The position numbers and the translations under genes were made by a program. The notes beneath the pieces are model-generated. The model was not told where the DNA came from and made no database searches. It saw nothing but the letters and a program-made list of their open reading frames with translations. A stretch of DNA of 58,405 nt from Candidatus Kapaibacterium sp. (GTDB taxonomy: Bacteria > Bacteroidota > Ignavibacteria > Kapaibacteriales > UBA4661): positions 1 to 58,405 of the forward strand of contig RDXM01000093.1 in NCBI GenBank assembly GCA_004292595.1, in the 5' to 3' direction. Below, piece after piece: positions 23,401 to 58,280 of the stretch; position 1 is the stretch's first letter; each line of letters opens with the position of its first letter.

Positions 23401-24233
23401 ACAAAGCGAGCATTCGCGCCCGCGTAGGTGGTCGAGTTTGCTGTGCCGCTAATGCTGGCATTGCCCTCGCAGCGCACTGTTCCGCCATTGGCAACGGAGA
23501 TACTCCCAGTGTTATTCAGGGTAAAATTGCCGCCCGTGAGCAAGAGCGTATTGGTCGCGCCAATGGCGATAGAGCCAGAATTTGTGCCGCCTGTGTTGTT
23601 GATAGTCAGCGTTGTTGTTCCTGTGGTAACGCGCAAAGTTCCAGCGAGCGTAGAAAGCGTGAGAAGGCGCAGATTCGTGCCGAGGTCAAGGAAGCCTCCT
23701 GTGCGGTTGAGTTGCAGCGTGTTGAGTTCTTCCGTGCCAGCAGCGAAGCGGAGTGCGCCGGAGATTGTTCCTGCGGCATTCACGAACATATTTGAGGCAA
23801 GCGTCCCGCCCCACGAACCGTTCAAAATAAGCGGACCGTCGAAACTAGCGGTTTGCCCACCGAGGTTAATCGTTGCGTTGGTTTGTAATTCTAAGGTAAC
23901 ATTTGCACCGATAAACCATCCTGCACCGAGCGTTGCTGTGCGTCCAGCAGGAAAAACAAACACATCGGTCGCGGAAAAAAAGTTTGGAGCTGCCGTGCCG
24001 CCGCCTGTCAAGACGGTGTTCCAGTTTGCGGGATTTGAAGGGTCGCTGGACTGGTAAAAATAGGTTGCTGCTCGGAGCGATGGCGCACCAATGCTGCTAT
24101 TTAGCAGCAGCAAACAGGCGCAGCAGAGCAGAAGCACGTGAGTATGCTTGCTTGCCTTGTGCAAGGGCTTCAAACAACGATACTTGTCATTGTGCAGTCG
24201 TGAGAGCGCATGAGAACGTTCAAGGATACGCAT
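17454..24233 (-). CDS. Giant mosaic cell-surface protein with T9SS sorting tail
   Basis: About 2,259 residues. I start it at ATG 24233 (MRILERSH); an in-frame ATG at 24281 would only lengthen the leader. Using the longer numbering, the regions are: signal sequence (VLLLCCACLLLL); beta-rich, filamentous-adhesin-like repeats to about 600; a run of IPT/TIG Ig-like repeats (about 604-1110, each with a pattern like ITGSNL); leucine-rich repeats (about 1174-1574); an Ig-like domain (to about 1665); a fibronectin-III-like domain (about 1677-1770); HYDIN/choice-of-anchor-type segments; and a C-terminal Por_Secre tail (PNPAHDAAALKY to the end) that directs T9SS export. It is probably surface-attached and binds carbohydrate, protein or other cells. 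No catalytic domain is seen. It ends six bases before the panC leader repeats. Confidence 0.9.
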   Translation of the reverse strand: MRILERSHALSRLHNDKYRCLKPLHKASKHTHVLLLCCACLLLLNSSIGAPSLRAATYFYQSSDPSNPANWNTVLTGGGTAAPNFFSATDVFVFPAGRTATLGAGWFIGANVTLELQTNATINLGGQTASFDGPLILNGSWGGTLASNMFVNAAGTISGALRFAAGTEELNTLQLNRTGGFLDLGTNLRLLTLSTLAGTLRVTTGTTTLTINNTGGTNSGSIAIGATNTLLLTGGNFTLNNTGSISVANGGTVRCEGNASISGTANSTTYAGANARFVYVGSNVARALTTAEVPATMLGSVELNNPNGTVSMSGALTLQATLRLASKLDIGSFTLILNGPVDMTTDAAFSDDANGGGRITIGGANTNALSGNFRWNSAFALNGLTMDRPAQTLVLGTDVPFSNTGILSLQQGNIRAAGNFRLTLNNLTGLVGGSVRSFVQCALRRRIPSSATIAFPVTFPVGKGGVYYPLSINDATTGAGAPMLEVEAYNTITTSTVSAGIQSLEPYFWRIDQGTVGDYTRARITTERVEPPFVGTNQFAIANSVQNAPYQLLGAQLISTFLSSDFFTVTGLNPRFFAVSNSAPVPTIARVEPNTGTMGTTATITGSNLTQVRQVFFGTIPATSFQEISPSQIRAVVGAGATGLVSVVALGGTAFSPTTFAYAPAPVITGVTPTQGGNNTLVTIRGRYIASAATVSIGGVLLPVLRRTDSLLQVRCPNQDITGAIRIGTAGGVATTTSSFAWYGVPSISLFTPNAGPVRGIVRITGANLSVVDTVFVGGVRVESYTVNSSTTVSIVLGRGTTGTITIVTPAGRATSATIFFFTPPPIFNAVTDERGAPITEAVGGTTVLLTGDHFIYATRATFGALTGANLQVISQTQASVQVPIGVTNALVRLETPGGIAISRTNFEVQPFVSITGFSPSFGTSGTVVEITGRNFSTDAIVTIVGVPAREVRVLSTTQILAVVGTIPPRAVRGSVIVTTANGTFTSTASFLVAAAQPLITGIEPTRATFGSLVNVRGQFLTGVREVTIGGGRAELVQSVSSTELIVRITRTTTTGTLGLSTIGGATTSSIIVTVIPAPYLTSVQPPFTVTGGTLTLRGGNLTNISSVIFGTTPALNFFVQSDSVIIAQLGSGSSGFVRVSGSRGSAQSPQELQVLTQLEFETAIVRTLYDSLGGASWTNRATNRWLSADPVRDWAGITVENNRITQIRLPENNLRGTIPEALAELQGLRVLDLTDNALAGAFPAWIQRLTSLEEVRVGGNQLTGSIPDSIGALSRLRVLVADRNRLTGRIPAVLCGLSSIEEVNLRQNGFTGEIPSCLGLLSRLRSLTLGENRLTGAIPSELTNVTNLQALYLDRNELTGEIPSGFGTNLTTATAQTTLPKDQQTRAFATPSLRFLWLNGNRLTGDVPVSIGSLGNIEELRLDNNQLRGSNLSGIIPRLTNLQTLDVGRNQLSGTVPSGIGNLRRLKFLALRNNQFTGEIPQGLATLDSLQTIFLDSNSFSGTLPAQFRQARSLQTLGLSFNRFTSIPGFTSPSIVSTLFAQGNRLQFGDLQNNAFIPNFIYAPQDSVGAARDTSVVIGNPFEISIAVTGRANQYQWFRNGVEVRQTSATVAFRLESFTARDTGSYVCVITNTIMDRLRLVSRPVRVLPVPPRPPTQAPELVFPQQDAKFIAFAPTLQWTRVDNAVEYLIHIAERRDFAEILTTATVRFADTTQRVVTGMVSGLQPLVQYYWRVQAINGIGITSPWSLAGRFSTAPPGTAISMSSVNFGNVVLGESSIGRAFLTNLTRDDLLLRDVDGNDNEISFRIPLDIRGLTLRAGQTILLDSLRFAPRSIGEKQANVSIRYINALGREDTLRLADILQGRGTPVKVLPINMDTIRFGKTAQSIALLLNRGDNATRMSVTGVEFVNKATGFSVEQLSAQRPLYVGGSDTTAVIIRCNPISTGNFTNTLRYFVDVERLATNGTILLDPPPFKDTLSAPLTVFVREQRPQTSVNLGDVSMRVGVRPARGLDSVAPGGRTTLELYFLDSTQARDIIRLNEVNGLPLAFSASLRMSSQVLSLVPNAAAYTVRNLDTRSRTHRVSIPYFPLARVGDQTLVEEFRRTGVFLRITCASVSGDVDTSAIELEDVRWGIDSLRRYVGTKQAFLEEVRNGLFRAQACQAGGKRLTTTAKANRLTALAPNPAHDAAALKYTVREDGFVEISLVNVLGNVVKTLVQSEHQAGEYALSVPLQDIPSGTYFLVMTAPNAVLTERVTVRH

Positions 24234-24759
24234 AATTTTCTTGAGAAAAACCAAAAAGAAGATGAAAAATGAAAATATCATTGAACAGCATTACGCCAAA
24301 ATGAGACAACATCTGCCTGTGTTTGTGCGAAGTGTTGTGCGTTGTACAAAGGTGTATTCAAAGGTATATTCGAGAATCTTCCCGCGCTAAAATTACAAAA
24401 GAAATTGCCAGGAAGCAAGATTGTATGCCACTTTTACGTTGAGTGAACAAGAAAGCATCCTACCAATACGCCACGAAAATATACCACTGCCACCAAGCAC
24501 AGATGATAACTAATGCAAAAATCGTACCGTTTGCTTGGCAGTGCGGCGAAGAAAACGTGCGTGGTGCTAAATTCATGCGGTAGCCTTGATTTTTCTCCCT
24601 TCAGGCTTGCACACCTCCCGAAAGCTCTGTATTTTTGCGTGTAACTTGTTTTCATGCTCTGTTGCAGTATTTTTAACTCAATAGCAGCGACAACATCTTG
24701 CTTTTGTAGTTCATGGTGGGTTTTCGCTCATCTGATTTTGTCCATCTGTTTTTGCTTCT
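24234..24759. other. Divergent spacer of about 526 bp
   Basis: This lies between the giant T9SS protein (minus) and the second T9SS protein (plus). It should carry both promoters, but I see no convincing promoter, hairpin or repeat. The short open frames here have no protein-like features. Confidence 0.5.
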
Positions 24760-28746: not shown

Positions 28747-29439
28747 CTACTTTGCAAATTTACTGAGCATCTCCGAGCGAGATTGCACCTGTACTTTGCG
28801 GTAAATATTGCGAATATGTGTGCGAATCGTGGCATGGCTCAGAAAGATTGTATCGGCGATTTCTTGGTACGACATCCCCTGAGCAAGAAATTCAATAATT
28901 TCTTGCTCTCGTTTGCCAAGGCTGTATTCATGCGCTTCGTGGGCGGAAACGGTGATTGCAGACTGCGCGATGTTCTGGGTCTGTGCGGTCTGCGCTCTGG
29001 CAATTTCCTGAAATGCTTTCAGCACTTTTCGCGCAATTTGGCTCGACATCGGCGAACCCCCACCGTGTAATTCAACGATTGCGGCAAGTAATTCGGCAGG
29101 TGGTATGCTTTTTATGACATACCCTGTTGCTCCAGCGAGAATGGACTGGTAAATATTTTCGTGGTCTTCAAACACCGTCATCATCATAATTTGCGCGGTC
29201 GTTCCTTGCTCGGCGAGACGTTTCATGCACTCAATTCCTGATATTCCTGGCAGAGCAATATCCATGAGAATAACATCAGCACCGAGGCGTGGCAGCATCT
29301 CCAGTGCTTCTTCCGCACTTGAAAAAGCTCCCACACACGTAAAATTGGGACTGCTGCCGATGAGAAATTCTAGCCCCATGCGAATTTTCGTACTGTCCTC
29401 AACGATGGCAACGTTGATTGATGATGAATTGATTGACAT
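28747..29439 (-). CDS. NarL/FixJ-family response regulator
   Basis: A 230-residue transcription regulator. I start it at ATG 29439 (MSINSSSINVAIVEDS). The receiver domain (9-125) has the acidic pair Glu14-Asp15, phospho-acceptor Asp60 (VILMDIALPG) and the conserved Lys in YVIKSIPP. A linker leads to a LuxR-type HTH (about 165-228: GKREQEIIEFLAQGMSYQEI, then a recognition helix with SHATIRTHI). It lies 74 bp downstream of susD on the same strand, so it may be the last gene of the susC-lipoprotein-susD unit. Its class is the usual partner of HisKA_3 kinases, one of which is divergent from susC (36199). I infer that they are a pair. Confidence 0.9.
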   Translation of the reverse strand: MSINSSSINVAIVEDSTKIRMGLEFLIGSSPNFTCVGAFSSAEEALEMLPRLGADVILMDIALPGISGIECMKRLAEQGTTAQIMMMTVFEDHENIYQSILAGATGYVIKSIPPAELLAAIVELHGGGSPMSSQIARKVLKAFQEIARAQTAQTQNIAQSAITVSAHEAHEYSLGKREQEIIEFLAQGMSYQEIADTIFLSHATIRTHIRNIYRKVQVQSRSEMLSKFAK

Positions 29440-29513
29440 TGAGTTCTTCCAAAAAATATGTCCTAGATTCAGAAAAATGTTCCCACGACGAGCAAGCACT
29501 CGCATCAACAAGA

Positions 29514-31025
29514 CTACTTATCCCACCAAACAGGCGCAGTCATGCGCTCATACCCCGCGCCCGCACGTTGCACGGCGGCATCCACATTGGTTTTGTTGAA
29601 GGTAAATTCTGAGGGCGGATAGAGCAAGCGCACAGGAAATGCGCCACCCGTGACGTTTCCACGCGGGCTGGCAGGTTTCAGGCGCGGGAAGCCCGTTCTG
29701 CGGTATTCGGCGTAGGGTTCGTAGCCGTCGAGGAAGAGCGCAAGCCACTTCTGGGTGTGAATCTGCTCCAATGCTTTGCTCTGCGTGAACACCACCTCCG
29801 CGCCGCGTAAATATGCGTCTTGCGCACTTGCGGAAATTACTGGCGGGTTCTCTGGATAAACGCTGTATTGCGCGAGTGCCGACCGAACACCGCGCTCGTA
29901 GTGGGTTTGCGCCGATTGCGTTCCCGTCCAGCCCTTCACTGCTGCTTCTGCTTGCAAAAATTCTGCCTCCGCCGCACAGAGTATCATGTTCACGCCAGAA
30001 AAATCCTCCGGAGCGAAGTGTTTGCTGGGGCGCGAGGCGCGTTTGTTGCTGTCGAGCGTTTTCTTTTCTTCAAAGTACAATCCATTCGGCAAACCGACGG
30101 CGGGCATTTTGTCAGAAAAAATCTGCAAACGCGGGTCATTGCTTGCTTTCATGCGCTCGACGAGCGTTTCACTCAGCGTAAACAAATCTTCCGTTACCGC
30201 AAACGGCGTGAGCGTATTGCGATACCAAAAGCTGGACGCAATAAAATTCGTGTACGCATTATCGCTGTTCGAGCGCAAAAGCCCGCCACGCAATGCCTCC
30301 TCGCCATGCTGCCGCGCAAGTGCTGGTGCGACGGTGGAAATTCGCATCGCCAAACGCAAACGCAGTGTATTGGCAAAGCGTCGCCATTTATCCAAATCTC
30401 CCTGAAACACCGCATCATTGCTCATTACGCGCTTGCTGCCGTCAAACGCCGCCGCCGCTTCTTTCAATTCCTTCAGCATATCGGTATAGATTGCCTCTTG
30501 CGTATCGTATTTGGGAGCGAGCGTCGTGCCTGGAAGGCTGCCTTTGCCTGCTTCGGTGTACGGCACATCGCCGAAAAGGTCGGTAATACGCTGCATCTGG
30601 ACGACGCGCAAAATTCTGGCTGCCGAGTGAACATTCACAAAGTCAGCATTCGTGCGGCTTTGCTCAATAATTTCCTCTGCAATGCGCAAGGGACTGTGCA
30701 TATTGTAAAATCCCGCAAAGAGAAACTGCCATACGTCGCGGTCTGTGGCGGTCGGCGTTGGGCGAAACACATCGAACTCCGTGTGATAGACGGGCGCGAG
30801 ATGCTGCACCACGCACGAAAGTGTGCCATATTGCACCGAAAAACCTTGCAAGGACTCGCCCGCCAAGCGTTGCTGGCAGTTTGCGAGCAGCAAATGCGGG
30901 TCTGCGCTTGTGGCGCGTGTGGGATTGATGTTCACGTCCTCAAGTCGCTCGGAGCAAGCATTGATGCTGAGTGCGAGGAGGATTGTGAGAAGTATTGTGG
31001 TCAGAAGAAGGATGTTTTTTTTCAT
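29514..31025 (-). CDS. SusD/RagB-like nutrient-binding lipoprotein
   Basis: A 503-residue outer-membrane surface lipoprotein that should cap a SusC channel and capture substrate. I start it at ATG 31025. The signal and lipobox (ALSINACSE, Cys24) are followed by the typical LEDVNINPTRATSADPHLLL opening and helical TPR-like SusD fold, and a C-terminal segment with LKPASPRGNVTG and WWDK. It fits the SusD-like_2 branch (PF12771), often tied to peptides or non-starch ligands rather than starch, which is general knowledge and not shown here. Unusually, an unrelated lipoprotein gene separates it from susC. Confidence 0.9.
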   Translation of the reverse strand: MKKNILLLTTILLTILLALSINACSERLEDVNINPTRATSADPHLLLANCQQRLAGESLQGFSVQYGTLSCVVQHLAPVYHTEFDVFRPTPTATDRDVWQFLFAGFYNMHSPLRIAEEIIEQSRTNADFVNVHSAARILRVVQMQRITDLFGDVPYTEAGKGSLPGTTLAPKYDTQEAIYTDMLKELKEAAAAFDGSKRVMSNDAVFQGDLDKWRRFANTLRLRLAMRISTVAPALARQHGEEALRGGLLRSNSDNAYTNFIASSFWYRNTLTPFAVTEDLFTLSETLVERMKASNDPRLQIFSDKMPAVGLPNGLYFEEKKTLDSNKRASRPSKHFAPEDFSGVNMILCAAEAEFLQAEAAVKGWTGTQSAQTHYERGVRSALAQYSVYPENPPVISASAQDAYLRGAEVVFTQSKALEQIHTQKWLALFLDGYEPYAEYRRTGFPRLKPASPRGNVTGGAFPVRLLYPPSEFTFNKTNVDAAVQRAGAGYERMTAPVWWDK

Positions 31026-31197
31026 GGTAAAAGTAGATTGAGAGTAATTGTTGTAGTATTCCCACCCAAGCAACTGTTCTTACAAGGGCAGTAGCCGTAT
31101 GGCGGGTGTTTGCAAGCGAAATAGTTTCCATGCAAGAAAATTATCACCTCAAAAAATGCCGAAATTTCTTGATGGAAAGAGGCTTCGATGTTGTTTG

Positions 31198-32310
31198 TTA
31201 TTTTCCATAAAAACTCAAAACAGTATCTCCGAGCCGCTTGTAATCAGCATTTTGACTTAAATGAAAATAATACCAAAAACTAAAAAGGGTATCTTTCCAA
31301 GCAATTTCTTTTTCCTGCCCCAAAAAACTTTCCCCACCGTCGAAAACCCGTGCATTACCTACTGTTGAAATTTCTCCGTTTGCCAGAGTGCGTGAGCGTT
31401 GCCACGATGTGCCACAAGCGAGAGCATTCCACAAGCGAGATTTGATGGTACTTTGCGCTGGTAACAACATAAAAATATTCCACCCCAGCGACAGCGCAAC
31501 ACCTTGATAGCTCGAGTCGTATCCGTTGCCTTCTTTGAAGTAGCCAGGTTCTTGTTGCAAAGCCAGCGCTCGCTGGATGAAATCCTCTGCAACGCTCTCT
31601 GATACTGCATTCCCGATATATGCTCCAACACCCAAATATGCCAGCGCGTCGAAAAAAAGCCTATTGGGAGCAGCACCGTCGTAGCGTTTCAAAACATCGC
31701 TTTGATTCAGCAAATACTTCAATGCCGCTTCAAACTTGGGTTTGAGGCGTTCAATCCGTTCTCGATACGGCTTTGCTTCTGGAGAAGTACGAAACCATGC
31801 AGATTCCTGCATCGCAGAAAGCGAAAGCCCAAGCGACGACATGAAAAATGCTGTACCGCTCGTCAAATCTGCCTCTGTCGCGGTCATACCTGCTAAGGAT
31901 GATGGGACAATAAGTTGGAAATCACCTTCAGTTTTTTGGAAGGAAAAGGAGTATTCAATTGCTCGTACCGCTTTTTCCAATTCTGTGGGGCTTTGTGCAA
32001 GAATGGCGTACGTAGTGAGCGTAGAAATGCCCATTTGAAAGCGAACATGGAAATATGAGGCGATGTTTCTCGACAATGCTCCACTCGCATTCGGCTGATT
32101 CGCATACGCTAGACGGCGCATATTATCAAGACCAATAGCAAGGTGAACGGCATTCAACGTGAGTGCTACTTTCTGAGAATCAACTGTGCATTTGGTAAAT
32201 GCTTGCGTTTGAGTGTTTGAATTACACGACAAAAAAATACAGTGTATTGTGAAGAAAAAAGCACAAAAAGCAAGGTTTGATACGAGTTGGACAGAGAAAC
32301 GAAAAAACAT
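31198..32310 (-). CDS. Unknown lipoprotein between susC and susD
   Basis: A 370-residue protein I do not recognise. A signal with lipobox (IFLSCNSN) predicts membrane anchoring. The rest is mostly helical with repeated helix pairs, aromatic patches and motifs such as GDFQL, GYDSSYQG, DGGESF and WYYFHL, which suggest an alpha/alpha-toroid fold as in some glycoside hydrolases and polysaccharide lyases. That is inference from pattern only; I can assign no catalytic pair. The DNA is clearly more A+T-rich than susC and susD, hinting at separate acquisition. A REP-like repeat lies in the spacer to susC. Position suggests a third component of the uptake module. Confidence 0.7.
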   Translation of the reverse strand: MFFRFSVQLVSNLAFCAFFFTIHCIFLSCNSNTQTQAFTKCTVDSQKVALTLNAVHLAIGLDNMRRLAYANQPNASGALSRNIASYFHVRFQMGISTLTTYAILAQSPTELEKAVRAIEYSFSFQKTEGDFQLIVPSSLAGMTATEADLTSGTAFFMSSLGLSLSAMQESAWFRTSPEAKPYRERIERLKPKFEAALKYLLNQSDVLKRYDGAAPNRLFFDALAYLGVGAYIGNAVSESVAEDFIQRALALQQEPGYFKEGNGYDSSYQGVALSLGWNIFMLLPAQSTIKSRLWNALACGTSWQRSRTLANGEISTVGNARVFDGGESFLGQEKEIAWKDTLFSFWYYFHLSQNADYKRLGDTVLSFYGK

Positions 32311-32630
32311 AATTACTCGTTGTTATTGGTGAAAAAGCGTTGGTAAATATACCATTTCTTTTAGGAGTAAATGTACGAGTACAAAAATTGTAATCAATTG
32401 AATGGTCTGGGACTAGCTCTGTATCGAAAAACCTTTGCAGACCGATTAAGTATAAGGAACGGTTAAAAAATAAAGTGTCATTTTCTTTAGGCTTCAGTGG
32501 CACAGACATTCCTGTCTGTGATTCCTGATGTGGCTTTGAAGACTCACAGACAGGAATGTCTGTGCCACCAATGAAGAGAATTCGTGCATTTATTTTCTCA
32601 CCGTCCCTAAGCCTTTGAATCCATACAACC
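32311..32630. other. 320-bp spacer between susC and the unknown lipoprotein
   Basis: This A+T-rich spacer contains the REP-like nested palindrome R1 (32497-32568). It may separate the two genes transcriptionally. No gene is seen. Confidence 0.6.
32497..32568. repeat. REP-like nested palindrome, copy R1
   Basis: The outer arms GTGGCACAGACATTCCTGTCTGTG and their reverse complement are separated by about 24 bases. Each arm is itself a palindrome (CAGACA-TTCC-TGTCTG). Flanking CTTCA and TGAAG extend the pairing to about 32492-32577. In this copy the arm reads ATTCC with GGAAT opposite; copies R2 and R3 have ATTCT with AGAAT, a paired change. Confidence 0.9.
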
Positions 32631-35600
32631 TCAAAATTTCACATTCACATTCACGCCCACGCTCCGCGCCGTCGGGTACGCGCCCATTTCCAAGCCTTGC
32701 CCGTTTGCGTTGGTATAGCTTGTTTGCGGGTCAATTCCAGGAACGAAATTCAGCAAAAACGCCACGTTCCGCGCCACAACCGACACCGCCAGCCCACGCA
32801 CAATTCCCCCGAAGGCTGATGAAACCTGCTCTTCAGGCACTGCATAGCCCAAACGCACCTCGCGCAATTTCACAAAACTTGCATCATAAATAAACGGCTC
32901 TGCCGCTTGCGCAATGACGGGATAGTACGCGGAGGCGCGTAAACGCTTGGTATTTGGCTGACCATTTTCCAACACGCCTTCCGAGAGAACGCCGTCTTCG
33001 CGCCCTTTCAGCGTTTGTTTGTGATTGCCAACGTCGGTTTGAACGGCATTCGAGTAGGAAAACATCTGCCCGCCAAAGCGGAAATCAATGAGTGCGCTGA
33101 GGTTGAAGTTCTGCCATGCAAAGGTATTGGTGAAGCCGCCCAAGAGCGTGGGAGTCGAGTTCCCAAGCGGGATGTAGTTGTTTGTCAGAAGCGGCACACC
33201 GTTTTCATTGTGCAAAATACGCCCTTGTGCATCGCGCCGAAAACCCGTGCCTTGCAACACGCCGTAGGGCTGATTCACCGTCGCCACAACGTTTGCAAGA
33301 TTGCGCCCTTCCTCCAACAGCAAGGTTTCAAGCCCTGGCGAGAGCGACGCAACTAGATTCCAATTCCGCGCCAGATTCGCGCTCACGTCCCACCGCACTT
33401 TGCTCGGAAGCCGCCCTGCAAGCGGTGTTGCGGTCAGCACGATTTCAATGCCTTCGTTGCGCATCTCGCCAACGTTGATGATTGCTTGCCTGAAGCCAGT
33501 GGTGTAAGAAACGTCGGTGGGCAAAATTTGGTCGAAAACGCGCTGCGAATACCACGTAACGTCAATTCCCAAACGATTCTCCGCAAAGCGAGCGTCTATG
33601 CCGAGTTCGAGCGTGTTCGAGCGCGTTGGGCGCAAACTCGAAAGCGGCACCACAAAACTCGACGCACGAGCAATGGTGATGCTTCCACGCGGTTGGTTCG
33701 CGGTTTGGTCAATACCGTAGGTTTGCGTGAGTTGGTAGGGGTCGGTGTCGCTGCCGACGAGCGCGTAGGAAGCGCGAAGTTTTGCGAAGGAAATAGCCTC
33801 TGGAAGCCGCATCAATTCTGAAAGAACGATGCTCGTGTTCACCGATGGATAAAAGTAGGAATTGTTCGAGGCGGGCAATGTGGACGACCAATCGTTTCGC
33901 GCTGTAACTTCGGCGAAAAGCCAGTTATCATGCGCTAACTGGGCTGTTCCGAAGGCAGACAAAATGCGTTTGCGGGACAAATCGTAATAAACATCGCGGT
34001 TTTTCACATTGCCAACGTTCACAATGTTTGGCAAAATAAATTCGTAACCGTTTACATAATTCCCTTCAAAGCGACTGTTCATCAGGTTTCCACCCAATGT
34101 AAAGGTCAGGCTTGTTTTTTCGGCAAGCGATTTGGTGTACGTCAAAAGCGCGTCAGCATTAATTTCTTCGTAGGTTGAGCGGGAATCGTACATCGCGCCC
34201 GTCGGATTGTACGGCGTTCCCGTGCTTTCGATGAAGGAATTATTGCGAGCAAGCGCGTCGCGTCCAGCACGGACTTGCAGCGTGAGTTCGTCGGTGATGG
34301 TATAGCGCACGAGAGCAGATGCAATCAGGCGTTCAACGCTTTGGCGGGCAAAATGTTCATTTATCAAAAAATACGGATTTGGATTGTACGCATCGCTTGT
34401 AAAGCTGACCACCTCTCCGTTTGGAGCGCGGTGCGCACGAATCATCTCATTGCTGATGCTCCGCGCCATGTACATAAAGCTGCGTCCAGGATTGGCGAGG
34501 TCGGCAAGGGCGGTGCGGTTTGAGGATTCGTTCACGTAATTCGCCTTCGCCTCAAGTTTGATGCGGTCTCCAAGCAATGCGCCGCCAGTAAGCGTAAAAG
34601 TGCTACGATTCAAAAAACTATTCGGAATCATGCCGCTATTGTCCATGTTCGAGGCGGAAAAGCGCACCGTTGCTGATTCTGTGCCGCCTGAGAGCGAAAC
34701 CGTATTTGTCAGCGTTCTGCCTGTTTGGTAAAAATTCGCAATGGTATTCGGCTGCGGAAGCAAGGGACGGCGCACTCCGTCGAAAAATTCTACCATTTGC
34801 CCCGTCATTTTGCTACCCCAAGAAACCGTGCCTGCATCCAGCGCGTCTGCTCGTGTTGCGGGCGTGAAGCCGCCGTAGCCGTGTCCGTATTCGTTTTGCA
34901 AATCGGGCAAAATGAGCGGCGTTTCAAAGCTGAGATTGCCGTTGTACTCAATACCTACGCCGTTTTTAGAGAATGCGCCTTTTTTCGTGGTAATCAAAAT
35001 CACGCCATTTTGCGCCCGCGAACCATAAAGCGCGGAAGCCGCCGCACCGCTTAGAATGGACATCGAAGCCACATCGTCGGGGTTGATATGCTGAATGCCA
35101 TCGCCCCAATCCACGCCGCCGTACTTGCCTGGCTGCGAGCCGCTTGAATTGTCAATCGGAATGCCGTCCACAACGTACAAGGGCTGGTTGTTTTGATACG
35201 CGCCGAGCAGCTTCACACCGCGCAAAATCACGCGCGTCGAAGAGCCGACAGCTCCAGCATTGATGTTTACTTGCGCTCCTGCGACTTTTCCCACGAGTGC
35301 CGCAGAAATGTTCGTTTCGCGGGCTTCGGAAAATTCTTGCCCTTGTACCTCAGAAACCGCATAACCAAGCGTCTTTTGAGCTTTTTCAATGCCAATCGCC
35401 GTTACCACAACGGCATCGGTACGAGCGGGGTCGAGGTCGAGAAGGATTTCCTTCACCGAAATCCCATTTTGCGCGTTTTCTGACGATGTTTCGCCAAAAG
35501 AATCAATGCGGAGAGTTTTCGTTTTGAACCCAATGTATAATACCTCCAATGCCGCTTGAGAACTTGTATTTGCGGGGATTTGCAAGCGAAACGCGCCATC

Positions 35601-35813
35601 TACGCCCGTGATTGCACCGAGAACCGTTCCGCGCAGCATCACCCGCGCACCCAAAAGCGGTTGCTTGGTTGCGGCTTCGCGCACAACACCAGTAATGGAG
35701 CGGCTTGTGGAAGAATTTACCAAAGATTGTGTTTGCGAAAAAAGAGGCGAAATGCACCGCCCTCCATTCGAGACTACCCAAAAAAACACCAGCACAAGAA
35801 ACAACCGTTTCAT
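32631..35813 (-). CDS. SusC/RagA-type TonB-linked outer-membrane transporter
   Basis: A 1,060-residue TonB-dependent importer, the channel partner of SusD. I start it at ATG 35813 (MKRLFLVLVFFWVVS) because GAGGT lies just upstream and the signal peptide begins there; a GTG at 35825 is less likely. After the signal come a CarboxypepD-like domain (about 38-115; ITGVVREAATKQPLLGARV), the plug (about 130-250) with the SusC signature NNQPLYVVDGIPIDN, LRGVKLLG and ALYGSRAQNGVILITTKKG, then a 22-strand-type barrel. No STN signalling domain is seen. It is divergent from the propeller kinase (386 bp). The substrate is unknown. Confidence 0.95.
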   Translation of the reverse strand: MKRLFLVLVFFWVVSNGGRCISPLFSQTQSLVNSSTSRSITGVVREAATKQPLLGARVMLRGTVLGAITGVDGAFRLQIPANTSSQAALEVLYIGFKTKTLRIDSFGETSSENAQNGISVKEILLDLDPARTDAVVVTAIGIEKAQKTLGYAVSEVQGQEFSEARETNISAALVGKVAGAQVNINAGAVGSSTRVILRGVKLLGAYQNNQPLYVVDGIPIDNSSGSQPGKYGGVDWGDGIQHINPDDVASMSILSGAAASALYGSRAQNGVILITTKKGAFSKNGVGIEYNGNLSFETPLILPDLQNEYGHGYGGFTPATRADALDAGTVSWGSKMTGQMVEFFDGVRRPLLPQPNTIANFYQTGRTLTNTVSLSGGTESATVRFSASNMDNSGMIPNSFLNRSTFTLTGGALLGDRIKLEAKANYVNESSNRTALADLANPGRSFMYMARSISNEMIRAHRAPNGEVVSFTSDAYNPNPYFLINEHFARQSVERLIASALVRYTITDELTLQVRAGRDALARNNSFIESTGTPYNPTGAMYDSRSTYEEINADALLTYTKSLAEKTSLTFTLGGNLMNSRFEGNYVNGYEFILPNIVNVGNVKNRDVYYDLSRKRILSAFGTAQLAHDNWLFAEVTARNDWSSTLPASNNSYFYPSVNTSIVLSELMRLPEAISFAKLRASYALVGSDTDPYQLTQTYGIDQTANQPRGSITIARASSFVVPLSSLRPTRSNTLELGIDARFAENRLGIDVTWYSQRVFDQILPTDVSYTTGFRQAIINVGEMRNEGIEIVLTATPLAGRLPSKVRWDVSANLARNWNLVASLSPGLETLLLEEGRNLANVVATVNQPYGVLQGTGFRRDAQGRILHNENGVPLLTNNYIPLGNSTPTLLGGFTNTFAWQNFNLSALIDFRFGGQMFSYSNAVQTDVGNHKQTLKGREDGVLSEGVLENGQPNTKRLRASAYYPVIAQAAEPFIYDASFVKLREVRLGYAVPEEQVSSAFGGIVRGLAVSVVARNVAFLLNFVPGIDPQTSYTNANGQGLEMGAYPTARSVGVNVNVKF

Positions 35814-36198
35814 AGACAACCTCACAAAAAAACGTGGACACAGTCTGCTCTAAGCGGTATCAAAGCCAGGTTTTAGTTTGAAAATATGCACTGAACATAC
35901 TGGCACAGCCGAACTTTGAAAGCGCGAAACCGCAGACACGGTGAAATGATGAATTTTTCCTAGAGAGAGTCCCTAGAGAGAATCAGCACGAAAATAGAAT
36001 TTTTTGTTGAGGATGCAAGCAAAAACGTGTATCTTTTCGCCCAGAATAGAAAAAAATGAGTAGTTTGTAAGTAGTAATGTATCAAAGTGTTATGCTATTC
36101 TACGAAATGTATCGTTGTTTATCAATGGTTTGTACGCAATTTCTGAGTAGTCATTTGTGTTGCTCTCTTTTCAGTGTCGCTCTTCTTTGGTTTGAGGT
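35814..36198. other. 385-bp divergent regulatory spacer, susC / propeller kinase
   Basis: This is expected to hold the promoters of the susC unit and of the kinase, and perhaps the operator of the NarL-type regulator. I see a 12-bp imperfect tandem repeat (TCCTAGAGAGAG/TCCCTAGAGAGA, about 35958-35981) but no clear promoter or inverted operator. Confidence 0.5.
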
Positions 36199-39100
36199 AT
36201 GATTGTATTCCGTATTCCTTTGGTTTTTATTTTTTTGATGACGCTGCAAAGCCTCATCATTCCTTGTGCTGCGCAAAATCTTTCGCAAAATCTCACACAA
36301 AATGCTCTCAAAAACCCCTTCCCACCACGCTTTGACCGCATCACCAGCAAACACGGGCTTTCCAGCAACAGCATCACGTGTTTTGTGCAGGACAAACGCG
36401 GTTTTTTGTGGATTGGAACGCATCACGGGCTGAACCGTTTCGACGGCTATCGCTGCAAAACATTCTTTGCAAACCCCGCAAAACCTCATGCTTTGATAAA
36501 CGACGACATCATGGACATCCTCGAAGACCGCACAGGAACGCTCTGGGTGGCGACGCACAATAGCGGTGTTGCGGCGTTTCAGGCAGCAACTGAGACATTT
36601 ACGCACTTTCGGCACAATCCCGCCGACCCACGTAGCCTCAGCGACGACAACGTTCACGCACTCACGCTTGATTCTACGGGCTGTCTGTGGGTTTGCACCT
36701 ACAATGGCGGCTTGAATCGTTTCGATGCTGAAACTCGCACCTTTGCTTGCTTGAAGGGGAAATTTCGCGGCGGTGAATGCGGCACAAACGAGTGTTCGCT
36801 CACGGTCGTCGCAACGGCGCGGGATGGCGCGTTGTGGGCGACTTCCGAAGGCGGCGGCACGTACCGCATTACCTTTCCCAAACCTGCAAATTCTCAACAA
36901 CAATTCTCCCTGAACAGCGCATCAATACAAGCCTTTGCGCACGCTTCTACTTCGACAATCAATATGACATCGAACTTTACTTCCGCGCTCGCGCCATGCG
37001 CTGGAAGCGGCGTGTGGAGCGGCTCATGGGGCGGTGGCATTGCGCAAATTTTTCCCAAAGATGAGGGCGGAATACGGCGCGTTGTTCGGAGCAATGAAAG
37101 CCCGAATGCCGCACAGAAACTGAGTGGAAACGGCTTGTCGCACAATACTATCAGCGCACTTTTTTGTGAAGCCGATGGTACGCTCTGGATAGGCACGTGG
37201 GGCGGCGGCTTAGTGCGCTACAAGCCCAATGCTTCGCCTGAACACGAGGAGTGGAGCGAGGAATGGACAATATTCCAGCATGACGAGACACATCCCGAAC
37301 CGCTTGGCAGCAACTTCATTACCGCCATTTACCGCGACCGCAATGGTATTTTGTGGATTGGCACCGAGAACGCGGGCGTGTCGGTGTGGAATCCCCACAA
37401 GCCGCAATTTACCGTGCTTAGGAGCAATTCTTCTGTGCAAAATTTGCCTCAAAACCAGCAAACATCAAGCCTGTATTTGCGAGACAACATGATTACTGCT
37501 CTCGGCGGCAGTAGTGGTGCGGGTGTCTGGATTGGCACAATGAATGCGGGTTTGCAGCATTTTAATCCCACAAGCCGCATTGTTACTCATTTCCCAAGCA
37601 ATCTTGCCAAGCCTAATGCTCTCAGCCACCGCTTTATCGAAGCACTTGCCGATGATGGCAAGGGAACGCTTTGGATTGGGAATGATAGCGGCGGCGTGAG
37701 CATGGTGCAATACGCTCCAACGCCCGATAAAATCAAGGCGCACAAAACCTTTCACCCGCGTTCGTGGCGCATAAAAACGACGAATCCTCGCCAATATTTG
37801 GAAACACCTGGACTTGTTGAGGCAATTTTGCTGGATTCAGTGCAAACATCTTTAGGTGAAAAGCAGCCACAACCCGCTCTCTGGCTTGCTCTCACAGGCA
37901 CAGGCTTGATTCGCTCGGCAATGTTTCGGGATTCAGCAACGGCATTTATTCCACCAGCAATTCTACGAAAAAACAAGACCGGACCTGCTTCCACGCGGAT
38001 TATGGCAATGGTACGCGATACCGACGGCGCATTTTGGCTCGCAACCGACACGGCAGGTTTAGATAGGTTTTACCCCGAAAGCAGCACTGTTACTCACTTT
38101 CGGCACCGTGCGAGTGACAGCACCTCTCTCAGCAGCGACCAAGTGTCGTGCTTGCTCAAAGCAAGCAATGGTGCGCTGTTTGCGGGAACGGGATTGGGTT
38201 TGAACCGTTTAGATTTGCCGCTCCCGCAAGGTTCTGATTCTGGTAAAATTGCTCAAACACAAGCATTCACGCGCTTTACCGTCGAGGACGGTTTGCCAGA
38301 TAACGGCATTAATTCGATGCTCGAAGATGCGCAGGGACGGCTTTGGATTGGTACAAATAAAGGCTTGTGCAGAGTGAGTTTTCCAACGCCGACGACGCTC
38401 CAAGTCCGCGTCTTTACTGAGGCGGACGGCATTGCTGGCAACGAGCATACACGCGCTGCCTACCGCGCCCCAGACGGCACGATGTACTTTGGCACATCAA
38501 GCGGACTGACGATTTTTCATCCCGATTCGATTCGTGAAAATCCGAATCCGACACGCCTCGCGCTCACGGGTTTGAGGAAATTTAACCGCCCCGTTCAACT
38601 CGACTCCAGCGCAGCATTTATGCGGGTTTTGCCGCTTTCATATTTGGAAAATATCATCACGGTTGAGTTTGCCGCGCTGGGATTTACGGTGGTGGAAAAT
38701 CAGCAATATTCCTACAAAATGGACGGTTTCGACCGCGATTGGATTGCCGCCGGAACAAGCAGGGAAGCCACGTACACGAATCTTCGCGGCGGCGAGTATC
38801 TATTCCGCGTCCGCGCTTTGCAGGGTGACGGCTCCTGGAGCAGTGAGGAAGCGCGACTCACGATTGCCGTAACGCCGCCCTTCTGGGAAACGGCGTGGTT
38901 TCTGACCTTGCTGGCAGTGAGTGTTTTGGGCGGCGTGGTCGCGCTCACGTCCTTTGTGGCGCGGCAACGCTTGGCGGTGCGGGTGCAAGAATTGGAGCGG
39001 GAGCGGGCAATTCAGCAAGAGCGCGAGCGAGAACGGGAGCGGATTTCGGCGGATATTCACGATGAAATTGGCTCTGGACTAACGCATATTGCCATTCTCA

Positions 39101-39678
39101 GCGAAGTTATCAAACAACAAACCTCCGAAGAAATGCCCGCGCGGATGCACGTGGACACGCTCTCGGAAACGGCGCAAGACGTGGTGAAATCTATCGGCAA
39201 TATCGTCTGGGCACTCAATCCCGACCACGACGAACTTCCCCATTTCCTCGCCTACACCCGTGAGTATTCTTCAACATTTCTGCGCAGCGCGGGCATTCGC
39301 TATGCCATTCGTTTTTCCGACGAAGCCCCGCCATACCGCTTGAAATCTCTCATTCGGCGGAATTTATTTTTGATTGTGAAAGAATCGTTGAATAACATTG
39401 TCAAATACGCAGATGCGAACAATGTGGAAATCATCTTTTCCTTTCCAGAAGAGACTGCTCCGCAGACAAGCAATGAAGCGGCAAGCAAGGCGATTGAATG
39501 CAAACTCATTGTGCGCGACGATGGTTGCGGAATGTCGTCGCTGGAAGGGCGGAAATTCGGACACGGCATGAAAACCATGCGTCGGCGAGCGGAGGAAATC
39601 GGAGGCGCATTTGTGCTGGAAAGCGAACTTGGCAAAGGGACGGTTATTACGGTAACCTTTGCGCTGGAAAGTGCGTGA
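36199..39678 (+). CDS. Propeller (reg_prop/Y_Y_Y) sensor histidine kinase, HisKA_3 type
   Basis: A 1,159-residue inner-membrane sensor. A signal sequence (to about PCAAQ) exports a large periplasmic region of two-component-regulator propeller repeats (about 35-800) with many LWIGT..GGL-type motifs, followed by a Y_Y_Y domain (about 825-890; YSYKMDGFDRDW, LRGGEYLFRVRAL). One membrane helix (about 895-920) leads to a short coiled coil, a HisKA_3 dimerisation domain with His954 (ADIHDEIGSGLTHIA) and a HATPase (N-box VKESLNNIVKYA, GHGMKTM). This is the input half of Bacteroides hybrid sensors, but with no receiver or AraC domain. It is divergent from susC. The NarL regulator past susD is the likely partner. 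Confidence 0.93.
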   Translation: MIVFRIPLVFIFLMTLQSLIIPCAAQNLSQNLTQNALKNPFPPRFDRITSKHGLSSNSITCFVQDKRGFLWIGTHHGLNRFDGYRCKTFFANPAKPHALINDDIMDILEDRTGTLWVATHNSGVAAFQAATETFTHFRHNPADPRSLSDDNVHALTLDSTGCLWVCTYNGGLNRFDAETRTFACLKGKFRGGECGTNECSLTVVATARDGALWATSEGGGTYRITFPKPANSQQQFSLNSASIQAFAHASTSTINMTSNFTSALAPCAGSGVWSGSWGGGIAQIFPKDEGGIRRVVRSNESPNAAQKLSGNGLSHNTISALFCEADGTLWIGTWGGGLVRYKPNASPEHEEWSEEWTIFQHDETHPEPLGSNFITAIYRDRNGILWIGTENAGVSVWNPHKPQFTVLRSNSSVQNLPQNQQTSSLYLRDNMITALGGSSGAGVWIGTMNAGLQHFNPTSRIVTHFPSNLAKPNALSHRFIEALADDGKGTLWIGNDSGGVSMVQYAPTPDKIKAHKTFHPRSWRIKTTNPRQYLETPGLVEAILLDSVQTSLGEKQPQPALWLALTGTGLIRSAMFRDSATAFIPPAILRKNKTGPASTRIMAMVRDTDGAFWLATDTAGLDRFYPESSTVTHFRHRASDSTSLSSDQVSCLLKASNGALFAGTGLGLNRLDLPLPQGSDSGKIAQTQAFTRFTVEDGLPDNGINSMLEDAQGRLWIGTNKGLCRVSFPTPTTLQVRVFTEADGIAGNEHTRAAYRAPDGTMYFGTSSGLTIFHPDSIRENPNPTRLALTGLRKFNRPVQLDSSAAFMRVLPLSYLENIITVEFAALGFTVVENQQYSYKMDGFDRDWIAAGTSREATYTNLRGGEYLFRVRALQGDGSWSSEEARLTIAVTPPFWETAWFLTLLAVSVLGGVVALTSFVARQRLAVRVQELERERAIQQERERERERISADIHDEIGSGLTHIAILSEVIKQQTSEEMPARMHVDTLSETAQDVVKSIGNIVWALNPDHDELPHFLAYTREYSSTFLRSAGIRYAIRFSDEAPPYRLKSLIRRNLFLIVKESLNNIVKYADANNVEIIFSFPEETAPQTSNEAASKAIECKLIVRDDGCGMSSLEGRKFGHGMKTMRRRAEEIGGAFVLESELGKGTVITVTFALESA

Positions 39679-54379: not shown

Positions 54380-54419
54380 TATTAAAGAACAAAAATCACT
54401 AATCCATATAATGTCTAAT

Positions 54420-54455
54420 GTTTTGATGAAAGTTTTGATAGAAGTTTTGATGAAA
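54420..54455. repeat. 12-bp tandem repeat at the propeller-MCP gene start
   Basis: GTTTTGATGAAA, GTTTTGATAGAA and GTTTTGATGAAA are consecutive. If translation began at 54411 they would be in frame and encode [12 protein letters not shown]. Confidence 0.8.
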
Positions 54456-54500
54456 GGTGAAATAAACGTGTGTGGAAATTTCGCAATTACGGGCTATTCT

Positions 54501-57500
54501 ATGAAAGATACATACCGCTTCGCGGCAAAACATAACGCTACTACCAGGGGAAAAACAGTATTACTGCTTTGTACAACGATACTCTTCCACGCTTTGCCTA
54601 TGCTTTTTTTGCCTGTACTTGCTCTGCCCACATTCGCCCAAGACCAAGGTACTGCGCCAAATCCACGCAAAGCAATCACCCAATACCACCACGATACATG
54701 GACACGCGACGAAGGCTTGCCTTCTAACAGCATTCTCACGGTCTTTCAGGCTGCCGACGGCTATATTTGGTTTGGCACATTCGATGGTTTGGTGCGCTTT
54801 AGCGGCGCGGACTTTACCGTATTCAGCAAAGCCGTATCGGAAGGCATCAAAAACAATGGTATTTGGTGCATTGCAGAAACAAAACATGGCACAAAGCAAG
54901 GAAATACGCCACACACAGGAACTGACCATTCGACGCTCTGGATAGGCACAAACGGCGGTGGATTGCTGCGCTACGAACAAGGAACATTCACAACCTTTGG
55001 CGTAAAAGAAGGGCTGCCGAGCGATGTGGTGCTGTCGCTTGCGGCGAATCCCACCGATGGAACGCTCTGGATTGGCACACGCAAAGGCGTGTGTATGCTG
55101 CGAGACGGCAAAATTACTGCTTTTGGCAAAGAGCAGGGCTTTCCCGTTGCGCCCATTAACAGCCTGCTTGTCGAGAATCGCGCCAGTGATAATGCTACTG
55201 CTGCACTTCTCTGGATTGGCTCGGCGCAAGGGTTGTTCGCAGCACGCGAAGGCAAAATTACATCCGTGTTTCAGGGTATTCCGCTTGCTGATTCTTTGCT
55301 CAAAACGCCCATCAAAGCACTTTTCCACGATTCCCGCACAACGCTCTGGATTGGTACGCTTGGCAAGGGCGTATTTGTTGCGCCCGACGGCATCAATACT
55401 CGCTCGCTCACACAACTCACCACCGCAAATGGTCTCTTGGACAATCGCGTTCAAGCCTTCGCCGAAGACGCTGCCGGAACGCTCTGGATTGGCTCTATGG
55501 GCGGGCTTTCACGCAAACGCTCTTCCTCAAACACGAGCATTGATGCGGTGTTCGACAATTACACCAAAAAAGACGGTTTGACCGATAATCAAGTGTGGTC
55601 GCTGATGACCGACAAAGAAGGCAGTCTTTGGGTTGGGACGTATCGTGGTGGATTAAATCGCTTCAAAAACGGGAAATTCCTCACCTACACCGCTCAAGAA
55701 GGCTTAGTGGACGACTACACCTACAGCATCCACGAAGCGCGAAATGGCGACCTCTGGATTGCAACAGCCGAAGGCGCAAGCCGCTTCACGCCTAGTGTTG
55801 GCGGCTCTTCTTCTTCCCAATTTTCTTTTGCCAATTTTTCCAAAGCAAACGGTCTGCCCGACAACATGGTGCGCACCGTTACGAGCAGCCCTGACGGCGC
55901 GACGGTCTGGCTGGGAACGTATCAAGGGCTGTGCCGCTTGCAGAATGGAAAGATTACGACGTTTTCCACCGCACAAGGATTGCCTGAAAATCGCATCAGA
56001 ACGCTCTTTTTGGCAGAAGACGGTATGCTGTGGATTGGCACAAATGCTGGGCTTGCAACCATGCAGAGCGATTCTATCCGCGTTCTGACTGATAAAAAAG
56101 GCATTTTGAAAGGAACGTCAATTATCGGCATTGTTCGTGGGAAGGGCGCGTCGTTGCTGCTTTCCACCGAAGGCAAAGGCTGGTGCAGATGGGAAAATGG
56201 CGCAATGACGGAGCATCTAACCACAAAGCAAGGTCTCGCCTCCGATGTCGTGATGAGTTCCTACGAAGATGCCGACGGAACGGTGTGGATTGCGACCAAT
56301 GCGGGATTTTTTCGCTGGAAGAACAAGGTTTTAACGGCATTCACACTCAAAGACGGCTTGCAAAGCGAGTCCGTGTACAACATTCTCGAAGACGAGCAAG
56401 GAATATTCTGGCTCGGTGGCAATGATGGCATTCAACGTATCGCCAAAAAAGAGATGAATGCGCTTGCCGACGCGAAGGCGCAGAAGCAAGGAATACAGGC
56501 ACTTCACGCGCAACTTTTCGGACGCTGGGACGGCATGAAAAGCAGCCAAGTAAGCGCACCATCGCTTGCCTGCAAGACGCGAAGCGGTTTTCTCTGGGTG
56601 CCGACCCTGCGCGGCATTGTTGGCATTGACCCAAAAAATCTTCAACTCAACACGCTCCCGCCGCCAGTGAAGATTGAACGCTGCATGACCGAGCGCGACA
56701 CAGCCAATCTTTTCGCGCCCGTCCGCTTTTCGGCAGGAACACAGCGTTTCACAATTTCCTACACGGCACTCAGTTATCTTGCGCCGTCGCGGGTGCAGTT
56801 TCGCGTGAAGTTGGATGGCGCAGATGAAGATTGGCAAAATGTTGGAACCCGCCGCGAGGCAGTCTATATGAATCTTGCGCCCGGAACCTACACGTTTCGT
56901 GTTCGCGCAAGCAATAATGACGGGCTTTGGAACGATGAAGGTGCGTCGTTTACCTTTGAATTGAAGCCGTATTTTTATCAAACGTGGTGGTTTCGCGGTG
57001 TGGTGCTGCTTTGCGTGATTGCGCTTGGGTTTGTGGGAGTGCGCTACCGCGAGAGACAAGCATTGAAGCGCGAAGCAGAACTTTTAGCACTCGTGGAAGC
57101 TCGCACACGAGAAATCACCTCCGAAAAAGACCGCACCGAGCAAGCACTGGCAGAAGCCGAGCAGCTACGCCATTCGGCAGAGGCATTGCAACAAAGCTCG
57201 GAAGCGCGGCGCAGCTATCTTTCGGAAAATGTGCAATATATTTTGCAGGCATTGGATGAAGTTTCGCAAGGAAATTTATCTGTTCGCCTAGAAGCAAGCA
57301 ACGACGGGCATTCTGGCGAGACTGGCGATTTTGGCGCAACGACGCTCGCACACGACAAGTACGACTCGGCATATCAGGATATTCGAGAACTCTACGACGG
57401 TATCAATCGAACAATAGGAATGATGCGCTCTGTGGTTGGTGGTGTGGCAAATGCGGCATCAGAAGTAGCCTCGTCGGGCGAGAATATTCGTCGCTCTGCG

Positions 57501-58280
57501 CTCTCGCTGGCATCCTTTGCCGAGCAGCAATCAAACAATGCGGGCGATGTGGCAGCAATGATGCGCTTGAGCGTACGGGAAATTTCAGAAAATGCTTCTA
57601 CCGTACAAGCCTCATTATTGCTTGCCTACGAGGAACGGAAAATTGCGCAAGAAGGCGGCGTGATTGTGAACCAAACAGTGCAAAAAATCCACGATATTGC
57701 GCGTTTGGTGGATGTTTCTTCTACTAATGTTGCCGAACTTGCCTCATTGAGCGACCGCATTAGCGACATCACCGAAACGATTCAAACGATTGCCGACCAA
57801 ACGAACCTGCTTGCGCTGAATGCCGCGATTGAAGCCGCCCGCGCAGGCGAGCAAGGACGCGGCTTTGCGGTTGTTGCCGATGAAGTGCGCAAACTCGCCG
57901 AAAGCACAGCCACAGCAACAAAAGAAATTAGCGCGACGGTGCGGGTCATTCAGAAAGAAATTGCTTCGGCGGTGCGCTCCTTGGGCGAAGGAGCAAAGCA
58001 AATGGACGAAGGCGTACATCTTGCAGAAAAAACCCGCACAACGCTTCAGAACGTGGTTTCGAGCGCCAACGACAATGCACAGCAAATGAGCCGCATCTCG
58101 GAAATGAGCCGTGCGCAAACCGAAAAAAGCACCGAAAGCCTCCACAACATAGAATCCATGCACACCGCCACGCAACGCGCTGCCGCCGGAATTGCGGAGA
58201 TTGCCGAAGCAGCCGAGAAATTACGCCGCTTGACGGGCGTTATGCAGGAACAGGTTGCGCGGTTTTCTTTGGATGAATAG
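54501..58280 (+). CDS. Propeller (reg_prop/Y_Y_Y) sensor fused to methyl-accepting chemotaxis domain
   Basis: About 1,259 residues from ATG 54501 (MKDTYRF); an in-frame ATG at 54411 is possible. A signal-anchor (about 16-40, ending LPTFAQ) exports a propeller region with some dozen repeats of the type LWIGT.GGL (about 50-720), followed by a Y_Y_Y domain (about 750-825; [27 protein letters not shown]). One membrane helix (about 828-848) leads to a coiled coil, a HAMP-like segment ([11 protein letters not shown]) and a full MCP signalling domain (about 980-1240) with the conserved tip [20 protein letters not shown] and [13 protein letters not shown]. It should control a CheA/CheW kinase from a periplasmic ligand. 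No che genes are in the window. Confidence 0.92.

Follow-up and report, generated by a model that had tools for sequence, protein, structure and literature searches.

A chemoreceptor with an HTCS-type double-propeller sensor in a Candidatus Kapaibacterium genome

The DNA analysed here, which we call the window, is a stretch of 58,405 nucleotides from Candidatus Kapaibacterium sp. (assembly GCA_004292595.1, contig RDXM01000093.1). It makes up the whole of contig C4 of genome G000, an assembly of 4.6 Mb in 199 contigs that is 96.5% complete. Close to its right-hand edge, an open reading frame of 1289 amino acids runs stop-free on the forward strand from 54411 to 58280. The gene itself (54501..58280, +) likely starts at Met31 (54501), just upstream of a stretch with the hydropathy of a signal peptide, and it ends 125 bases before the end of the contig.

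The product of this gene, hereafter propeller-MCP, consists of a series of modules that are all encoded on the forward strand. The signal-peptide-like N-terminus (54501..54638; hydropathy peak at residues 48-76) is followed by two Reg_prop propellers, the first at about residues 86-422 (54666..55676) and the second at about residues 422-742 (55674..56636). Next come a Y_Y_Y domain at residues 789-850 (56775..56960; PF07495, 3.5e-15), a single transmembrane helix at about residues 857-879 (56979..57047; hydropathy up to 2.07), a cytoplasmic coiled linker (57048..57215), a HAMP-like segment with a 22-residue insert (57216..57446) and an MCP signalling hairpin (57447..58265) whose tip lies at about 57804-57857. 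In the Pfam search, Reg_prop (2.5e-47, nine stretches), Y_Y_Y and MCPsignal (1.8e-41, residues 1073-1252) all pass the curated cut-offs, and none of the HisKA, HATPase, receiver or DNA-binding output families is matched at E values up to 1. Hydropathy exceeds 1.6 only in the signal-like stretch and in the helix, as expected of an extracytoplasmic sensor with a membrane anchor. The first-pass annotation had read propeller, Y_Y_Y, one helix and MCP hairpin on a single protein, and the Pfam search and hydropathy bear this out. The hairpin is also intact as it had claimed, with the MCPsignal match in place and the CheA/CheW-binding tip kept in alignments.

The proximity of the gene to the contig end could suggest that a propeller kinase was fused to an MCP by a frameshift or an assembly error. 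This explanation is practically negligible, since the same junction occurs in G005, G006 and G007, which match separately named assemblies; a frameshift or join between the Y_Y_Y and MCP parts, named beforehand as what would overturn the finding, is excluded by junction identities of 88% in G005 and 70% in G006 and G007. Nor would an assembly join account for the presence of propeller-MCP in nine of ten genomes of the family. These comprise all eight members of the genus, G000 included, each with at least one copy whose MCP part was checked, and G009, whose copy runs off a contig end; the tenth, G008 (70% complete), yielded none. Orthologs of the window gene itself are found in G005 (88% identity), G006 and G007 (70%), G002 (69%, truncated) and G001 (in two pieces on separate contigs). 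In the 51 of the 61 genomes searched that lie outside the genus, G009 and G008, there were sensor-only matches in six and no spanning match. Judged from its sequence, propeller-MCP is a real, intact and conserved chemoreceptor with an HTCS-type sensor.

The double propeller and Y_Y_Y sensor characteristic of HTCS is recognised by Pfam, by sequence and by fold. A structural model of residues 80-860, built from 13 sequences, reached a mean pLDDT of 85.8; single-propeller chains align to model residues ~7-343, corresponding to the first propeller, and ~343-663, corresponding to the second. The top Foldseek match of the model is BT4663 (4a2m/4a2l, E 4.8e-45), a heparin/heparan-sulphate sensing hybrid two-component system, and the match covers nearly the full length of the sensor. 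VIA-align likewise places 4a2l first (Z 37.1, 692 aligned residues, rmsd 3.9), followed by 4a2m and 3v9f (Z 33.7), and a sequence search with the sensor retrieves 4a2l at 2.8e-49. According to the sections consulted of PMC3243724, the HTCS sensor domain has about 800 amino acids with two predicted seven-bladed propellers plus YYY, and direct binding of linear oligosaccharides was seen for all four Bacteroides HTCS sensors examined.

It had been supposed that the cell may steer by the same ligands it digests. The neighbours of propeller-MCP in G000 are mscL, a DUF3078 gene and a DAHP synthase gene, and neither a CAZyme nor SusD adjoins it. The order glmS-like gene, DAHP synthase, DUF3078, mscL is common to G005 and, in the stretches compared, not to G006 or G007. 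No carbohydrate-active enzyme or SusD was found among the scanned neighbours of the copies in G006, G007, G122, G063 and G1066 (10 proteins) or of the two G000 paralogs on contigs C185 and C159 (9 proteins). A positional link to glycan genes is unsupported; one of the scanned neighbours, adjoining the G007 copy, is a TonB-dependent receptor. A SusD-like gene does occur about 23 kb away; together with TonB plug and LuxR-type genes it adjoins the propeller kinase that starts at 36199, not propeller-MCP, and the supposition about digested ligands is not supported in the form first given. Across 28747-39678 the window carries genes for a LuxR-type response regulator, a SusD-like protein and a TonB plug protein next to the propeller kinase; this cluster probably serves glycan use and has a sensor of its own. 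Elsewhere in the window, 17454-24281 encodes a protein of 2275 amino acids with TIG and leucine-rich repeats and a Por_Secre_tail, likely a type IX cargo. A ribonucleotide reductase with an intein adjoins the G063 copy (L123:3549-6515).

A HAMP domain between membrane and hairpin is usual in MCPs, though not universal. The HAMP-like segment noticed at first sight in propeller-MCP aligns, apart from its insert, to the HAMP domain of the C185 paralog (2.1e-7), and it gives no Pfam HAMP match even at E values up to 1. The propeller-MCP of G1066 has a recognised HAMP (9.7e-7). At its start, the linker that precedes this segment resembles the linkers that follow the membrane helix in other G000 propeller proteins. 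A linker profile made from 20 propeller proteins not known as MCPs, with L012, which ends at a contig edge, included as non-MCP, matched the window protein weakly in a search of eight sequences (best domain 5.5e-5, full sequence 0.0017) and left G1066 and G063 unmatched. This match suggests that, in the window's genus, the sensor arrived together with the membrane helix behind it and the first part of the coiled linker.

Compared with chains of E. coli MCP I (Tsr), the hairpin has 14 extra residues per arm, and no such gaps appear against the aromatic-acid receptor 6s18. With Tsr taken to be 36H, the window hairpin is assigned to 40H. Both lengths coexist in G000: among 15 hand-picked hairpins, five (one of them L145, which is the MCP encoded in the C132 che cluster) are 14 residues shorter in each arm and differ at the tip, while the window protein and its C185 and C159 paralogs belong to the long class. 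A genome from the same order has, at L116:280-9744, two MCP ORFs in tandem (1515 and 1547 amino acids), the longer with six HAMP_2 stretches and several PAS domains.

G000 encodes at least 26 propeller ORFs, counted over 150 of 348 candidates. Their outputs are MCP in three cases (C4, C185 and C159), kinases in 15 (12 with HATPase_c, one with HisKA_3 and two of the His_kinase or LytS type), SpoIIE in three and cyclases in three (the one on C102 assigned by reading the sequence); one has no output match and one ends at a contig edge. The HisKA_3 case is the neighbouring propeller kinase (36199..39678, +), which combines Reg_prop, Y_Y_Y, HisKA_3 and HATPase_c and was used for comparison. The sensor tree, built on 55 rows (20 MCP and 35 non-MCP, with L012 again counted as non-MCP), requires five changes of the MCP label, of which at least two are forced by starred branches. 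It excludes duplicates, cut ORFs, L029 (which lacks a Y_Y_Y match), L047 and the hits L071-L077 from named genomes. The AU test rejects a single clade of all MCP types on this tree (p 3e-81). It also rejects the window group with C159 (p 0.001) and does not reject the window and C185 groups together (p 0.347); the test assumes groups named beforehand, which holds for the all-MCP group, the smaller ones having been named once the tree was seen. On the hairpin tree, one clade of all propeller receptors is not rejected (p 0.219), nor are the window and C185 groups together (p 0.381), and a tree constrained to unite the window group and C159 scores 3 units better still. The hairpin trees omit sequences with off-pattern tips (G1066 and L163, L171 and L172 of G000), the cut L040 and a fragment in L099, and the AU run also omits three long-branched rows; all trees come from a quick search without a mixture model. 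Because the sensor tree does not unite the MCP types, outputs were exchanged more than once, and the MCP-bearing sensors have more than one origin. As for the hairpins, one may have been passed between sensors, or several may have been captured. The first-pass annotation had presented the 36199 kinase and propeller-MCP as a pair illustrating output exchange. Exchange is indeed seen over the wider set, but not for this pair: a 100% split separates the sensors of the two, 36199 belonging to the other deep sensor clade. It is not a close sister and is rejected as the direct exchange partner.

How widespread the architecture is was surveyed with a profile running from Y_Y_Y through MCP, scoring the best three candidates per genome in Bacteroidota and Pseudomonadota and the best five in Acidobacteriota, so that counts are lower bounds, at a threshold of 1e-60 under which a divergent case like that of Treponema would fall. 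Among the matches listed, spanning ones occur in at least 8 of 395 Bacteroidota genomes, four of them of the window's genus (G000, G003, G005, G007) and the others being G122, G063, G068 and G204; Pfam confirms Reg_prop, Y_Y_Y and MCPsignal in G122, G063 and G204. The phyla of a Duganella and a Pyrinomonadaceae genome, taken to be Pseudomonadota and Acidobacteriota, gave 0 of 398 and at least 1 of 297 (G1066), respectively, within the best candidates scored. In six control genomes, none of the matches listed down to E 1e-20 spans both parts. Only one place in 72,556 plasmid records has at least 80% query coverage, on pTS2 of Treponema saccharophilum, where the 1173-aa WP_002704105.1 has all three families confirmed by Pfam. 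An MCP match starting at 76489 occurs both on contig 2 of G068 and on plasmid NC_013502.1; from this shared match G068 is probably Rhodothermus marinus DSM 4252, which would then carry the same architecture.

It could be argued that propeller-MCP is an ordinary member of a common, already described architecture. Several lineages carry it, RefSeq names the Treponema copy as a propeller protein, and the propeller input is in print with another output, on GGDEF proteins in Xanthomonas (PMC6637768, in the part consulted). The low counts above, with half of the Bacteroidota cases in one genus, and the lack of any describing paper in the literature searched make this improbable. In the portions of PMC6637768 and PMC8463545 that were covered, what joins Reg_prop and chemotaxis is GGDEF proteins and hybrid kinases with propeller input, with no chemoreceptor among them; a reference in the latter concerns an Azospirillum brasilense hybrid two-component protein with a role in chemotaxis. 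Neither "Reg_prop" nor "propeller" occurs in PMC11237719 or PMC6321045, nor in the portion consulted of the main text of PMC8547431. Both halves of propeller-MCP are thus of known kinds, and their combination is rare in our surveys and undescribed as far as searched, not the common and described architecture that the first-pass annotation had named as grounds for refutation.

Genes of a CheA pathway are present in the genome. G000 has 46 MCPsignal matches and five CheW-domain matches, the latter read as two CheA (683 and 840 amino acids), two CheW (one in the C2 cluster) and one CheV, all read from sequence, which answers the earlier suggestion to look for cheA and cheW elsewhere in the genome. 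CheR, CheB and CheY were read from ORFs of the che clusters, and a domain scan found a CheZ-like phosphatase. The C132 cluster contains a protein with Hpt and receiver domains, and an NtrC-like regulator, read from its ORF, precedes the C2 cluster. Also in the C132 cluster (L034:2408-4715), a receiver protein of 411 aa lies beside a CheB; the C-terminal half of this protein reads as CheD-like. Because L145 of the C132 cluster is of the short class and the window hairpin is long, propeller-MCP most likely works with the CheA of the C2 cluster.

SprA, the sole gliding gene checked, is present in all eight genomes of the genus. As it also has a role in type IX secretion in the absence of gliding, its presence is compatible with gliding without proving it. 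No match to flagellin or PilT was found in G000, and none to FliG in any of the eight genus genomes. Of the movements first envisaged, swimming and PilT-driven twitching are therefore not supported, and gliding is retained as possible in the window's genus. These absences, together with the Hpt-receiver protein and the NtrC-like regulator, would also fit a receptor feeding a CheA pathway with a non-movement output such as gene expression, development or a second messenger. We give that alternative a lesser though real chance, since 46 MCPsignal matches and a CheZ-like phosphatase look, in our judgement, more taxis-like, and SprA is compatible with gliding.

We consider it very likely, as a whole, that propeller-MCP is a transmembrane chemoreceptor in which a BT4663-like sensor acts through a 40H hairpin and CheA on gliding or some other surface behaviour. 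A ligand in the periplasm, most plausibly some oligosaccharide, would alter the propeller/Y_Y_Y dimer. The change would cross the membrane along the single helix, run on through a short coiled linker similar to the one in the propeller kinases, and then pass through the degenerate HAMP-like stretch to the hairpin. The latter, arrayed with CheW, would modulate CheA activity, most likely that of the C2 cluster, and CheA would in turn act through CheY-type regulators. Gliding or another surface behaviour is proposed as the endpoint because no flagellum or PilT was found.

Propeller glycan sensing is thought of as gene regulation, and few chemoreceptors are known for such ligands. Propeller-MCP would couple glycan-type sensing to taxis, so that the cell may steer by signals that usually switch genes. 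A broader generalisation, which we offer as speculation and would not yet favour, is that "HTCS-type MCPs" form a dispersed, repeatedly assembled set of polysaccharide-sensing chemoreceptors that steer glycan-eating bacteria, here through CheA-controlled gliding, with the same sensor fold in one cell also placed on kinases, phosphatases and cyclases. In G000 a single sensor fold serves at least four output types, namely kinase, phosphatase, cyclase and chemoreceptor, which makes this genome a natural set for studying transmembrane signalling under output exchange. The architecture can be tested, since it occurs in cultured bacteria, namely Treponema saccharophilum and, probably, Rhodothermus marinus.

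Among proteins on record, WP_002704105.1 of T. saccharophilum likewise unites Reg_prop, Y_Y_Y and MCPsignal on one chain, but it shares only 24.8% identity, belongs to a spirochaete and is annotated in RefSeq as a propeller protein only. With E. coli MCP I (Tsr, 36H) and the aromatic-acid receptor 6s18, propeller-MCP has in common the MCP hairpin and its conserved tip. Unlike in usual MCPs, HAMP is unrecognised, a coiled linker separates the membrane from the HAMP-like stretch, and the ligand-binding part has about 780 residues; in the part consulted of PMC8547431, three size ranges between 60 and 299 amino acids take in all except 8% of the 72,480 putative ligand-binding domains. BT4663 and the other Bacteroides HTCS sensors (4a2l/4a2m, 3v9f, 3ott) share with it the periplasmic double propeller, the Y_Y_Y domain and the single membrane helix (PMC3243724, sections consulted). 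Linkage to a polysaccharide-use locus, usual for HTCS although not defining, is absent, as propeller-MCP does not lie beside a SusC/D locus in G000. The output also differs from that of the Bacteroides HTCS, as propeller-MCP has an MCP hairpin in place of the kinase and regulator.
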